DNA from: Stramenopiles sp. TOSAG23-2
Lineage: Eukaryota; Sar
Assembly: GCA_900128395.1 (NCBI GenBank)
Contig: LT649515.1
Span: 1,042-22,353, forward strand
Length of the DNA stretch: 21,312 nt
Direction: 5' to 3'
Position 1 is the stretch's first letter; each line of letters begins with the position of its first letter. The translations under genes and the position numbers were made by a program. The notes beneath the pieces are model-generated. The model saw nothing but the letters and a program-made list of their open reading frames with translations, searched no databases and was not told the DNA's origin. This document shows positions 16,107 through 21,312 of the stretch, one piece after another.

Positions 16107-19100
16107 TTATGCTTTATTTACACACTTTTTACAGACATAATGCGATCCACCTGCGCATCTATATCCGTTTATAAACTGTTGTTGACAATTCATACAAGTA
16201 CCTCGACCAGGAAGCCATTTATAACTTTGAGGGCATATGCCAATCTTGTCCATCTTTTCCTTCAATAACTTGTCTGACATCTCCACCATATCTTCCTCTT
16301 CCTCCTTCTCCTCTTCTTCCTCTTCTTCCTCCTTGACTTCTGTTATTTCAATCGTAGGCGCATTACGTATTCTTTGTTGGTCATCATCATCACCACCACC
16401 CCCACGACCTTCTTTGTATCGATTTGGTCGATATCTGGGTGCTCCTGACGGCGATGGACCATTTGCAAATCGATTGTATTTCTCTTGATTAAGATTGTTC
16501 ATACTCATACCAATGATGTCAAAAACATTTCGAGGCTGGATAGTATTTATAATATTATTGCTATTATTATAATTATCATGATCATCAGGATGTATATTTT
16601 CTAACTCATTTTCATTTATTCCAAAATCTTGAGCAAGAAAAGTTTTTACATACACCTGCGTCATTTTGTCTTCTATATTAAGATTTAGTTTGTCCCAATT
16701 TTTCATTGTTCTTTCAGCCAAGTTTTCCATTGCTGTTTCAACTAAGTTCACAGCTAAGCCACCATTATGGGAAGCCATTTCTTCGCTCCACTTAAATGGA
16801 ATCCACTTTGCCAACTTTTCTTTCAATCCAGGTGCAAAAATATAATCTTTTTCCTCAGCCTTCGCTTCAGCAATTTCAGCTAACTCAGTACCATTGTAAT
16901 TTTTTAAAATCACTTGTTGCCTAAAGCGTCTTTTTAAACCAGGATCAGCCATTAACAATTTGCCCATTGGTCCTTCATACCCTGCTAAAATGACTAATAA
17001 TTCGGATCGGTGATTTTCAATTTCTGTTAACAGCGTTTGAATGACCTCTTTACCGAAGGTATCACCACCATTACTTATCAATGCATAGGCTTCATCGATG
17101 AATAGACAGCCTCCTAATGCATCTTGAACTATTTCTCGAACATTATGCGCCGTTTGACCTACATATTGGCCTTTCAAATGCAATGCATTAATCTCTTTGA
17201 AATGCCCAGTCTCCAGTATACCATGCGCGAACAAAAATTCACCGATTAATCTGGCCGTTGTGCTTTTGCCCGTTCCAGGGTTACCCATTAACACCAAATT
17301 CATGGAATTAAATAAGGGAGCAGTGTTACCAGTTTTTTCGACATATAATGCAGTGTTTTTCATTTTCGCAAAAAATTCTTTCATGTTAGCCATACCAATT
17401 AAATTCTCTACTTTTGCTGCAATTTCATCTTTTTTTAATTGATCGGCACCAATAGAGCCTTTTCCTAGGTCTTCGATGCCAAAATCAATTCCACAAATAG
17501 TCTTAGCATCATTCATTAATTCAGTTGGATTCCTTGTCTGTCCCTCTGATGATTCTAATAGACGGCCTTCTAGCGCTTGCACAGCTTTTTGAACAAGGTT
17601 TACAGCAAGGCCACCATTCTCTGATGCTATCTTTCGCCTATATTTGATGCCAATATGTTTGCTCAACGCCTCCACCAAACCAGGCTCAAATGATTTACCA
17701 TTTCTTGAGAATGCAACGTACTCCGCAATTTGAGCAATTTCGTTTGTGGAATAATTAACTAAATGTAACGCTTCTGGGAAACGACGTGGTAATCCCGGAT
17801 CCTCTCTTAAAAGACGTTCGATCTTATCTTGATAACCAGCAATGATAACTAATGTATTATCACGATTATTTTCAATCTCCGTCAACATAGTGCGAATAGC
17901 CTCTTTGGAAAACGTATCACCTCCTTTTCCATTTTCAGATGCCAACGCATATGCTTCATCGATAAATAGGGTTCCAAATTTTGCGTCTTTAAACGCTGCT
18001 TTTACTAAAGGCGCGGTGCTACCAACATATTCACCTTTAAGTTCCAAGGCATTTTTTTCAACAAACTCACCCGTCAAAATGCCATGTGCTTTAAAAAATT
18101 TATGAATTATTCTTGCAAAAGTTGTTTTTCCAGTGCCAGGACAGCCTGTAAGCTTTAAATTATAACAACGTTTCACACTACGACGATCACCAGTAATGTT
18201 TACAAACTTGATTGATTTGCTAATTTTTTTTAACCATTGTTTAGCACTGTCCATTCCAATTAATCCTTCAACTTCTTTCATTACCTCAGCAATTAATTCT
18301 GGATCTCCAAGTTCTTTTCCAATACCAAAGTCAGCTGGGATTAATATGTTATTCGTATTTAATTGTGTTTCATCCTTTGAAATTCTTTCTACACGAGAGC
18401 GAATCGCTTGATCGACTAGATTTCGAATGAAACGAACACCACCTTCCGGTACTTTACCACACGTATCATGCAAATGTTGAGCCAATTTGTCTTGCAATCC
18501 TTCCTGTAAAGCACTATTTCGTTGCTGCACATATTGTTCTGCAATTTTCACTAATGTTTCCGGAGACGGATTTGGAATTCGTACATGCCATGGAAACTTT
18601 GTCTCTATTTCTGCATGAGAATTTTTAATCGAGATAGCTTTGTTTGGTTTACATGCAAGTGCAATAAACGAGCTTGGCTTTGAAGCTTCTTGAACTAAAC
18701 TTTCTACTAATCCGGTCTTTGCACTTGTAACATAATTGGATTCATTAACAGCATTTGTCGGTAGAATTAGTTCTGCTTGTGAAACCATTATACCACCTTC
18801 GACATTTTTGCATATGCTTGCAAATGTATCGTTACGATTTTCTGCAGCTGCATTATATAAATTTGGTGCGGAACTTTTTATAAAAGTATTTGATGGCAAA
18901 ATATTATATGCATGTAAAAACTCAGTTGCTAATTCCATAAATAACGTTTTCCCTACACCATCGTTTCCTTCAATGATTGTGTTGAACTCCCACGATGCTA
19001 ATGTAGGCTGTGAATCATTCGAATCGCAATTCGTCGAAGTCTTTGCTATGGATATTGCATTTCCATCATTACCACCAGAATCGACTTTTCTCTCATCATC

Positions 19101-21312
19101 ATCAAATACATTTTTTAGACAATATTTCGTATCGGTGTCGGTTTTCTTTACGTTATTTTCTGATCGTTCATGCTCCTCAATATGTTCTCTTACACGCTGA
19201 AACCACCATCTTGGAGAATTTTCATCATTGCTGCCCCAACCAATTTGTGCAGCAATCTTATCATTGATTGCTTGCCTCTTTTTCTCTTTCTCCTCACGGC
19301 TTACTGTATTTACATCAAAGTCACCAATAGTAAGAACTAACGGAGAATGCATAGCAAAGTTATCGTCACCTCCTGAGTCTTTTAGTCTTTTATTTTTGCG
19401 GGTAATTGCTTGATCAACACAATCATTTGCTAACCACGCATTTCTATCGTTTATCTCTTTCGCTTTATACTTTGACTTTACAATTTTTTTCATTGTCAAA
19501 AAGTCACTATTGCATTCATCGTCACATTGAAGTTTGTAACCACGCTCTCGCAATTTGTTAAGTGAAATACGTGCTAAATTTGCCGGTGATATTACTGGCA
19601 ATGAAATAAGGTCAGGTTTGTATTTGCGAAAACAAGTCAATGCTGAGATGGTATTACTTATACTGACACTGGCGCCAATAATTACACGAATGTTTTTGTC
19701 ACACGCTGCACTTAAACATGTACTAATTGCAACCAATTTTTTGCGGCATATAGGTTCCGACTCTATCATTGGCCAATAAATGGAAATTGGTTCTTTTAAT
19801 GGCTTGTCTACGTTTTGAAGCTCTTCTTTTAAAGCATCTAAGCTTGCAATTTCCTTGTACTTTTTAGGTTTTGCTATTTCAAGAGCCCCTTCTCTATAAG
19901 ACCAGTCTGTTTTATTGTACTTTATAGTGATATAACCATTACCACTTCTTCCTTCTACACGTGTAACTACACCGATTTGCCCTGGATTTAATGGCCCTCC
20001 ATCTGCTTCCGTGTCAAACTTTTTATAATCCGTTTTTAGCGTCTTCTACACGTGTAACTACACCGATTTGCCCTGGATTTAATGGCCCTCCATCTGCTTC
20101 CGTGTCAAACTTTTTATAATCCGTTTTTAGCGTCACTCTTGATCCTACTTTAATAGCACTTACGTTGGCACTCATGTTGCCAAAAGTTATTGAGTTTGCT
20201 TTTCTAGGCTTTATTTGTACTGTAAGTACATCACACCAATCTGCAATTAGTTTTGCCGACGTATTTTTCCCGCTTCCTGCATTTCCAGAAATTATAATAT
20301 GTCTCAGCGTGACTTTTTCCAAGACTTTAAATCTCCCCTCAACATCAGCAATCGTTTTAAGAATATGTTTTTTGACAGCATCTAAACCAACTAATGCTTC
20401 TTGTTCCGCCTTTAACTTTCCAATTTTATTCGCCATTTCTGAACTTAATCCAAGTTCACTTACAATAGATTGTACTGGAATTGAATCGGCATATTTAGCT
20501 GCAAGTTGTTTTTGCTTTGTTTCAATAGATTCTTTGCTCTTTTTGCGCATCTCTGGCACCCGTTTTTGCAAAATAGTTCTTAACTTTTTCTTCAATTCAA
20601 TTTCAAATTTCTTTTCTTCTTGAAAATACTTTTTTACGTCACGAATATGTTTTGACGCAAACGTTGCGACTAAATTCCACAATTCTTTAACGTTCTCAAC
20701 TGACAAAGTTTTGTTTTTATCATTTCTTAACTTCATTATATCTGGCATAAATTTTTTTAATACACATTTTAACTTTTTCGGTTTCTCTAATTGTTTGCGT
20801 CTGAAAAATCTACGGAGGAAGGGTATTGCTCCATATACTTTTTCGTATTCGTTAAATTCATCAAATTTCTTTTTCTCAGAATCTCCTATTAGTAAAATCA
20901 AAATGGGAGCGATTCTTTCATGATTAAATCCCTTTCCATCAACGGTATCGCTTACTGCTTGTAAAGCTTTTAAATATAGTTTAATTGCGTATAATGCAAG
21001 CGCTTCTGTTTTATCGTTTGTTTTTAATGAAGTTTTCTTTGACTGAAATAATGCAACAGCTTCATTAAAAAATCCTTTGCCACTTATTGATGTTTTGAAG
21101 AGTCCTTTGCTAGCAGGTTTAGAGGAAGTAGTTGATGCTCCACCAAATAATCCACCTCCATTCGTTCTTTGTGTTGATGCTCCACCAAATAACCCACCTT
21201 TAGAAGATGTTGTTGTTGGTCTACTAAATAGTCCACCTGTAGAAGCATTTGTTCTTTGTGTTGATGATCCACCAAACAGTCCACCGTTAGAAGATGTTGT
21301 TGATCCACCAAA
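16107..21312 (-). CDS. Giant multi-AAA (CbxX/CfxQ-type) protein, 5'-partial and frame-disrupted
   Basis: The gene enters from the right edge, so its start is unseen. Open frame 1 runs 21312-20023; frame 2 runs 20045-16107. They are the same gene split by a 91-bp tandem duplication; counting one copy gives 1704 visible residues. Order: GLFG-type repeats (21312-21100); MIT-like helices (about 21085-20950); a basic coiled helix; AAA1 with P-loop GNAGSGKN (20260-20286) and an inserted MIB/HERC2-like domain (about 20155-19870: GSRVTLK, GGPLNPGQIGVV, WSYREGAL); AAA2 with GNDGVGKT (18945-18968) but SQAE where Walker B should be; AAA3 with GCPGTGKT (18120-18146) and LFIDEAYAL; AAA4 with GNPGTGKS (17256-17286) and LFIDEAYAL; an acidic run; a Cys/His tail. 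AAA3/AAA4 carry DPGLxRRF arginine-finger motifs, so they are probably active hexameric remodelling modules. Confidence 0.85.
16119..16198 (-). other. C-terminal Cys/His motif of the multi-AAA protein
   Basis: The last 40 residues contain C-x2-C-x8-C-x4-H-x2-C-x2-C (CMNC, GYRC, GGSHYVC, KKC), with one more Cys upstream. The spacing suits a small zinc-binding module. I cannot assign it to a named finger family. Confidence 0.65.
19952..20133 (-). repeat. Exact 91-bp tandem duplication, frame-breaking
   Basis: Bases 19952-20042 are repeated without mismatch at 20043-20133. As 91 is not a multiple of three, reading through both copies shifts the frame and meets TAA (20025-20023) inside the second copy met on the minus strand. 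Reading one copy followed by 19951 onward keeps the frame and completes the MIB/HERC2-like domain (VVTRVE then GRSGNGYITIKY). Confidence 0.97.
21097..21312 (-). repeat. GLFG-type repeats at the N-terminal side of the multi-AAA gene
   Basis: Repeats of the type GGLFGG-[AS]ST separated by Ser/Thr/Asn/Gln-rich linkers (STQRTN, TTSSK). The core is seen as GLFGG three times and as GLFS and KGLF once each; FGG at the very edge shows that the array continues outside the window. Corresponding DNA words (CCACCAAATAA, GTTGATGCTCC) recur. Confidence 0.85.

Follow-up and report, generated by a model that had tools for sequence, protein, structure and literature searches.

A predicted four-module CbxX/CfxQ-type AAA+ protein of Stramenopiles sp. 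TOSAG23-2 and its eukaryotic relatives

Introduction

CbbX, the red-type Rubisco activase (PDB 3syk, 3syl and 3zuh), and EccA1 (PDB 9lur) are among the closest known systems to a gene that we analysed in a 21,312-nucleotide stretch of DNA from Stramenopiles sp. TOSAG23-2 (assembly GCA_900128395.1, contig LT649515.1, here C282). This stretch, C282:1042-22353, is called the window, and positions refer to it unless a contig or locus is named. CbbX has one module and, like p97, forms homo-oligomers. The gene is predicted to encode a eukaryotic AAA+ protein of the CbxX/CfxQ type whose four modules stand in tandem, two being dead, and which also has an insert and additional parts. With p97/Cdc48, NSF and ClpA/ClpB/ClpC it shares the tandem arrangement within a chain, and the fold match extends over two modules, but these proteins have two modules and belong to other families. 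Dynein and midasin carry six modules in one chain.

Comparison with CbxX/CfxQ-type proteins

A 91-bp duplication breaks the frame of the gene, and searches were therefore run with two pieces, an N piece (P0001; 20026-21312, minus strand, 429 amino acids) and a C piece (16110-20045, minus strand, 1312 amino acids). AAA_lid_6 (PF17866) matched in three stretches (57.7 bits, cut-off 24.3), which places the protein in the CbxX/CfxQ type. Likeness to the SpoVK and EccA families of this type was seen in TIGR02881, which hit the C piece in three places (387.1 bits, E 2.9e-116), and in the database names of some relatives. However, the C piece stayed below the NCBIfam equivalog cut-offs for SpoVK (387.1 of 422.95 bits), EccA (293.6 of 466.65 bits) and CbbX proper (261.8 of 459.25 bits), and four modules in a eukaryote set the protein apart.

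An initial annotation of the window had taken four CbxX modules in a row to be exceptional, which overstated the case. In Ignavibacteria, Firmicutes and others, CbxX proteins carry two or three modules in a row, an arrangement shared with the window's family. We surveyed the 80 best of 164 confirmed bacterial loci (L030-L109). Of their 80 open reading frames (ORFs), 58 had three CbxX modules and 22 had two. None of the 80 had four, by a count that omits hits covering fewer than about 80 profile positions, the form in which dead AAA1 modules show up. Bacterial chains might thus also harbour a dead fourth module, because the count misses such short hits and a loose P-loop pattern lies upstream of the counted modules in 34 of the 80 ORFs. 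Longer arrays were seen in single chains, with seven CbxX module hits in P0041, six in P0045 and five in each of P0050, P0052 and P0053. Viral contigs yielded 62 loci; 17 ORFs of at least 400 amino acids were counted, of which 15 had one module, one had two and one had three.

Four AAA modules with a graded loss of catalytic residues

The gene and its modules were located as follows:
Contig end down to 16107, minus strand: four-module AAA gene.
19386..20418 (outer limits approximate), minus strand: AAA1, degenerate; Walker A GNAGSGKN at 20263-20286, without Walker B acids, interrupted by an insert and a duplication.
18327..18995, minus strand: AAA2 with its lid; Walker A GNDGVGKT at 18945-18968, SQ in place of the Walker B DE.
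17577..18278, minus strand: AAA3, intact; Walker A at 18123-18146, Walker B DE at 17955-17960, pore loop YVG, RRF finger.
16725..17417, minus strand: AAA4, intact; Walker A at 17262-17285, Walker B DE at 17091-17096, pore loop YVG, RRF finger.

Motifs were read on an alignment of 46 rows and counted on 37 of them: P0002 (a public copy of the window protein), P0005 (a paralogue on contig C219 of the same assembly) and the relatives P0006-P0040, including P0009 and P0010, which have one module more than other members. P0041-P0049 were aligned and excluded from the counts (other multi-module proteins or poorly aligned rows), and P0050-P0092 lay outside the alignment.

The four modules announced by the initial annotation are real according to Pfam and the motifs, and an AAA fold was seen at AAA1 in the predicted structure of the paralogue. 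The poor P-loop noted for AAA1 was confirmed, and its Walker B is missing as well. At the position after the Walker lysine the 37 rows have R (20), K (6), H (6), N (3), Q (1) or S (1), so that the Walker threonine/serine is replaced by a basic residue in 32. The Walker B acids of AAA1 are absent from all 37 rows, P0009 and P0010 being gapped there. AAA2 keeps Walker A and has lost the Walker B acids in the window, as had been described; across the rows its Walker A is canonical in 14, its Walker B DE in 7, and both in only 7. In AAA3 and AAA4 the Walker B DE is present in 37/37 rows each, Walker A in 37/37 and 36/37 respectively (P0035 is gapped in AAA4), and the pore loop aromatic in 33/37 and 37/37 respectively. 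The AAA3 finger is preserved in every row. AAA1 and, in this copy, AAA2 are thus predicted to be without catalytic residues, while AAA3 and AAA4 retain them. The graded loss with an intact C-terminal pair, proposed for the window, is in the aligned sequences a family-wide trait.

A family of four-module proteins

The initial annotation presented the architecture as new. The same four-module core is present in the C219 paralogue and in P0006-P0040, and the window protein is, by this alignment, a copy of a wider family. The C219 copy is 51% identical to the window's chain; its frame (L029:187-8253, C219:2486-10552) encodes 2689 amino acids, with ankyrin repeats (Pfam) ahead of the core. The first protein search, with the C piece (7,989 candidates scored), yielded P0002 plus two distantly related AAA proteins, of which one bears the name CDC48. 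The search with the paralogue returned 88 proteins, 35 of which (P0006-P0040) align over the core. A search for the same domain order in other protists, which had been suggested, thus found the core in Symbiodinium microadriaticum (P0032, database name 'spoVK'), Cymbomonas tetramitiformis (P0021) and further relatives. Seven relatives compared with P0002 were 33-44% identical. We infer that the family is a protist one from these two named organisms, the eukaryote-only source of some others (eukprot) and this genome.

Dead AAA1 is common to P0006-P0040, while the end parts vary from copy to copy. From the accessions, we take the end domains to be ankyrin (P0021, P0033, P0034), SAM (P0017), CCCH (P0018), ubiquitin and vWA (P0011, P0012), UBA (P0038) and NHL (P0015). 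These relatives differ from the window protein in lacking its GLFG repeat array. Among the titles and abstract openings listed for CbxX/CfxQ/CbbX/SpoVK-type AAA proteins and for FG-repeat AAA ATPases, none described the four-module family, which is real and apparently undescribed. Some proteins that go by SpoVK or EccA1 in databases turn out to be a eukaryotic chain of a distinct kind, having four modules with a conserved dead one among them. Such a family offers a natural test of the role of dead modules in an AAA stack, and of how swapped end domains aim one motor core.

Some observations on C219 stand apart from the core. Other N-terminal stretches of the paralogue recur elsewhere in the genome, and L007:2-1678 on this contig is a frame that contains a 78-bp repeat and a very long run of arginine-proline dipeptides.

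The AAA1 insert and the regions flanking the core

19872..20223, minus strand: SH3-like insert within AAA1, at the stretch that holds the pore loop in AAA3 and AAA4.
20458..21072, minus strand: helical region before AAA1.
16251..16583, minus strand: low-complexity acidic linker.
16110..16235, minus strand: C-terminal Cys/His tail.

The distance from the first helix to the strand of the missing Walker B in AAA1 is 35-204 residues, and at least 100 in 23/37 rows, compared to 48-51 for the equivalent in AAA3. The extra stretch reported in AAA1 is real, although its MIB/HERC2 label found no support: PF06701 matched none of ten insert pieces (Pfam, E up to 1). The insert looks SH3-like, since the aligned insert sequences resemble an SH3 barrel by eye and the paralogue model has short strands in this region. 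The Mind bomb SH3 repeat PF18346 exceeded its cut-off in one of the ten pieces (P0018, E 2.4e-8) and was weak in P0021 (E 0.11); none of three insert pieces from the window protein matched it.

The helical region matches the paralogue from residue 128 on, forms helices in the paralogue model and is also common to P0007, P0011 and P0013 (by eye). It had been called MIT-like, a label we dropped, as the MIT domain (PF04212) was absent among the four Pfam families matching the N piece up to E 1. The acidic linker has a predicted local distance difference test score below 50 at model residues 681-781. The Cys/His tail is present as originally described and recurs in 22/37 rows (20 by pattern, P0002 counted, plus P0014 and P0024 by eye). 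It would be zinc-binding by resemblance only. The C219 paralogue has such a tail in the frame that follows its own break (by eye), and P0006-P0008 end in a SAM-like stretch (by eye).

GLFG repeats at the N-terminus

21073..21312, minus strand: GLFG repeat stretch, truncated by the contig end.

The GLFG repeats described for the window are present, and the N-terminal stretch carries the FG/GLFG repeats that define FG nucleoporins (PF13634, 33.8 bits, cut-off 32.2); that they belong to the gene is a judgement to which we only lean. The right end of the window coincides with the end of C282. In the assembly searched (17.45 Mb in 793 contigs) the same 240 bases recur once, at C73:39577-39816, and the sequences diverge sharply beyond. 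By DNA, no contig other than C73 and C282 held the upstream part of the gene. The C73 copy follows a frame of 1347 amino acids with FG repeats, read by eye as a nucleoporin, in which Pfam named no nucleoporin domain.

The GLFG stretch may be foreign to the gene and brought there by misassembly at the contig end, a serious contender that we hold to be somewhat under an even chance. The contig terminates inside the repeats, and the identical 240 bases adjoin FG repeats in C73. However, in the window these bases continue in frame into the AAA part, whereas in C73 they close an open block of 193 codons (L022:4239-4817) whose frame differs from that of the FG repeats to either side. Furthermore, the start of this block resembles residues 990-1066 of the C219 paralogue, just upstream of the core and about 430 residues before its AAA1 (BLASTP 30.4 bits, 24% identity over 109 columns and 70% over the first 20 residues). 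The match has an E value of 4e-5 alone and of 0.003 against 93 proteins, and none of 300 shuffles was as good. Because the block starts like the paralogue and the 240 bases run in frame into the AAA part, we favour, in one joint judgement, that the repeats are native to the four-module gene and that the C73 block is its upstream part, misplaced in C73. L022:4239-4817 is then a probable misjoin.

Several results weigh against native repeats. Immediately before the 240 bases, the C73 block has a 165-base segment with 99% identity to C73:40248-40412, a place amid FG repeats. GLFG was found in none of 40 N-terminal stretches, the C219 paralogue included. A search with residues 1-1404 of the paralogue, in which 33 of 88 candidates were scored, gave 39 matches, none of them in C73, and the paralogue was not in the first five hits of phmmer with the upstream part of the block. 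The protein search with P0001, in which the 7,991 best word-sharing candidates were scored, found no second copy of the window's N-terminus; its one match was a fungal hypothetical protein with FG domains. Outside the window, a single GLFG stands in P0007 (within the AAA1 insert), in P0034 and in P0051, and the fungal P0093 has ten.

The membrane or pore link of the initial annotation had the FG repeats alone behind it, at a tangled contig end, and was not sustained. An AAA+ remodeller that acquired nucleoporin-type GLFG repeats by gene fusion in one lineage, beside a segment almost the same as one amid the FG repeats of another gene of this genome, and that is delivered to nuclear pores or transport receptors, or acts on them, as a disassembly or quality-control machine, seems to us unlikely. 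This fusion is the sole part of the protein that would be new, and, if real, it would link such an AAA motor to the nuclear pore.

Within the C73 block, a 54-residue motif (NYQAEVTKIYQQYNPSKL...) at L022:4410-4571 recurs weakly in frames of C371 (four times), C33, C224, C62, C472 and C12 (E up to 0.1).

Proposed mechanism

We propose that the protein is an oligomeric ring remodeller with stacked rings, in which AAA3 and AAA4 drive, AAA1 and AAA2 are structural and the variable ends choose the client (probability roughly 0.6). Copies would assemble into stacked rings, and AAA3 and AAA4 would hydrolyse ATP and pull on a client peptide. AAA1 and AAA2 would form a fixed tier, with the SH3-like domain, at the place of the AAA1 pore loop, perhaps receiving or gating the client. 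The variable N- and C-terminal parts might act as client adaptors (ankyrin, SAM, ubiquitin or UBA domains, the Cys/His tail and perhaps the GLFG repeats here). In AAA3 and AAA4 alike the pore loop is of the aromatic-hydrophobic-glycine type and an arginine finger is present, and their conserved Walker motifs, pore loops and fingers are, at the level of motifs, those of a threading AAA+ motor. The AAA2 finger is preserved in 7/7 members with a live AAA2 site and in 16/30 with a dead one. This pattern weakly fits a pairing of like modules in neighbouring chains, that is, stacked homo-oligomers; the test is weak because the finger is kept in 16 of the 30 dead-AAA2 members and because the aligned rows are related.

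Other points speak against a ring remodeller of this kind, besides those 16 members. The predicted models are single chains (predicted template modelling scores of 0.67 and 0.47), with AAA1 and AAA2 modelled on the paralogue. The listed fold matches (VIA-align, Foldseek) mostly cover AAA parts; Foldseek TM-scores among them were low (0.21-0.41 by query length), and the long two-module alignments have a high root-mean-square deviation. CbbX works on one exposed peptide and not as a general unfoldase, and the AAA3 pore loop is non-aromatic in 4/37 rows.

Alternatively, the modules of one chain might close a ring, the dead ones being structural, as in dynein, midasin or RNF213. A chain in which two modules are live and two are dead would suit such a design, and the dynein-related AAA_5 match is above its Pfam cut-off (32.4 bits, cut-off 22). 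However, its E value is 1.1e-7, compared to 1.6e-38 for AAA, and the best fold neighbours among the matches listed are CbbX and p97, both homo-oligomers. The AAA3 finger is also invariant, though both AAA2 Walker motifs are canonical in so few rows. Six modules in a single chain were not found: the window has four, with the N-terminus truncated where the contig stops, and in the paralogue the module profile gave no hit ahead of residue 1497, the start of AAA1. We therefore consider a single-chain ring improbable, and the dynein or midasin logic of the initial annotation found no support.

Reading frame

19952..20134, no strand: exact 91-bp tandem duplication, breaking the frame inside AAA1.

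The frame break is best explained as a local assembly fault and not as a border between two genes, because P0002 reads through the site and because such duplications recur in the assembly. P0002 (1480 amino acids, encoded on a public ENA contig 4,726 bases long) matches the whole of the C piece (100%) at 98% identity and overlaps the N piece by 169 residues, all of them identical. It is a single unbroken frame across the duplication site, with a Gly-rich linker of about 30 residues there. Seven exact two-copy tandem duplications of 91-144 bp were present in the 77,482 bases of the assembly that were read; one sits where the frame of the C219 paralogue ends, and two coincide with breaks in a single gene, read by eye as a pyrophosphatase. 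The fault thus probably breaks other genes of the assembly too. Two separate genes divided at the repeat, a possibility raised in the initial annotation and favoured by the stop codons in the frame as assembled, are highly improbable, given that P0002 continues through the site in one frame, that the split would cut AAA1 itself in two, and that the C219 paralogue runs through AAA1-AAA4 in a single frame, with the core also unbroken in TRINITY-named ORFs.

An intron at the repeat was considered and rejected. The 91-bp unit has no AGGT or AGGC on either strand, so that no GT-AG or GC-AG splice can remove one copy, and P0002 has a different sequence at the site. Introns born of tandem duplication were also rejected as a general account, with AGGT on one strand in 2 of the 7 units.

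Exact two-copy tandem duplications of 95-144 bp were located at L008:454-644, L008:1203-1420 and four sites in L025, some of them at frame breaks.

Other frames of the window

The other frames of the window look unremarkable for a microbial eukaryote: a GH20 hexosaminidase, an ATG13-like piece, a sperm-tail PG-repeat protein, a leucine-rich repeat protein and an SH3/IQ protein. The frame at 112-1221 has a Gln/Met-rich repeat tail made of 36-bp units and had no Pfam match up to E 0.05.

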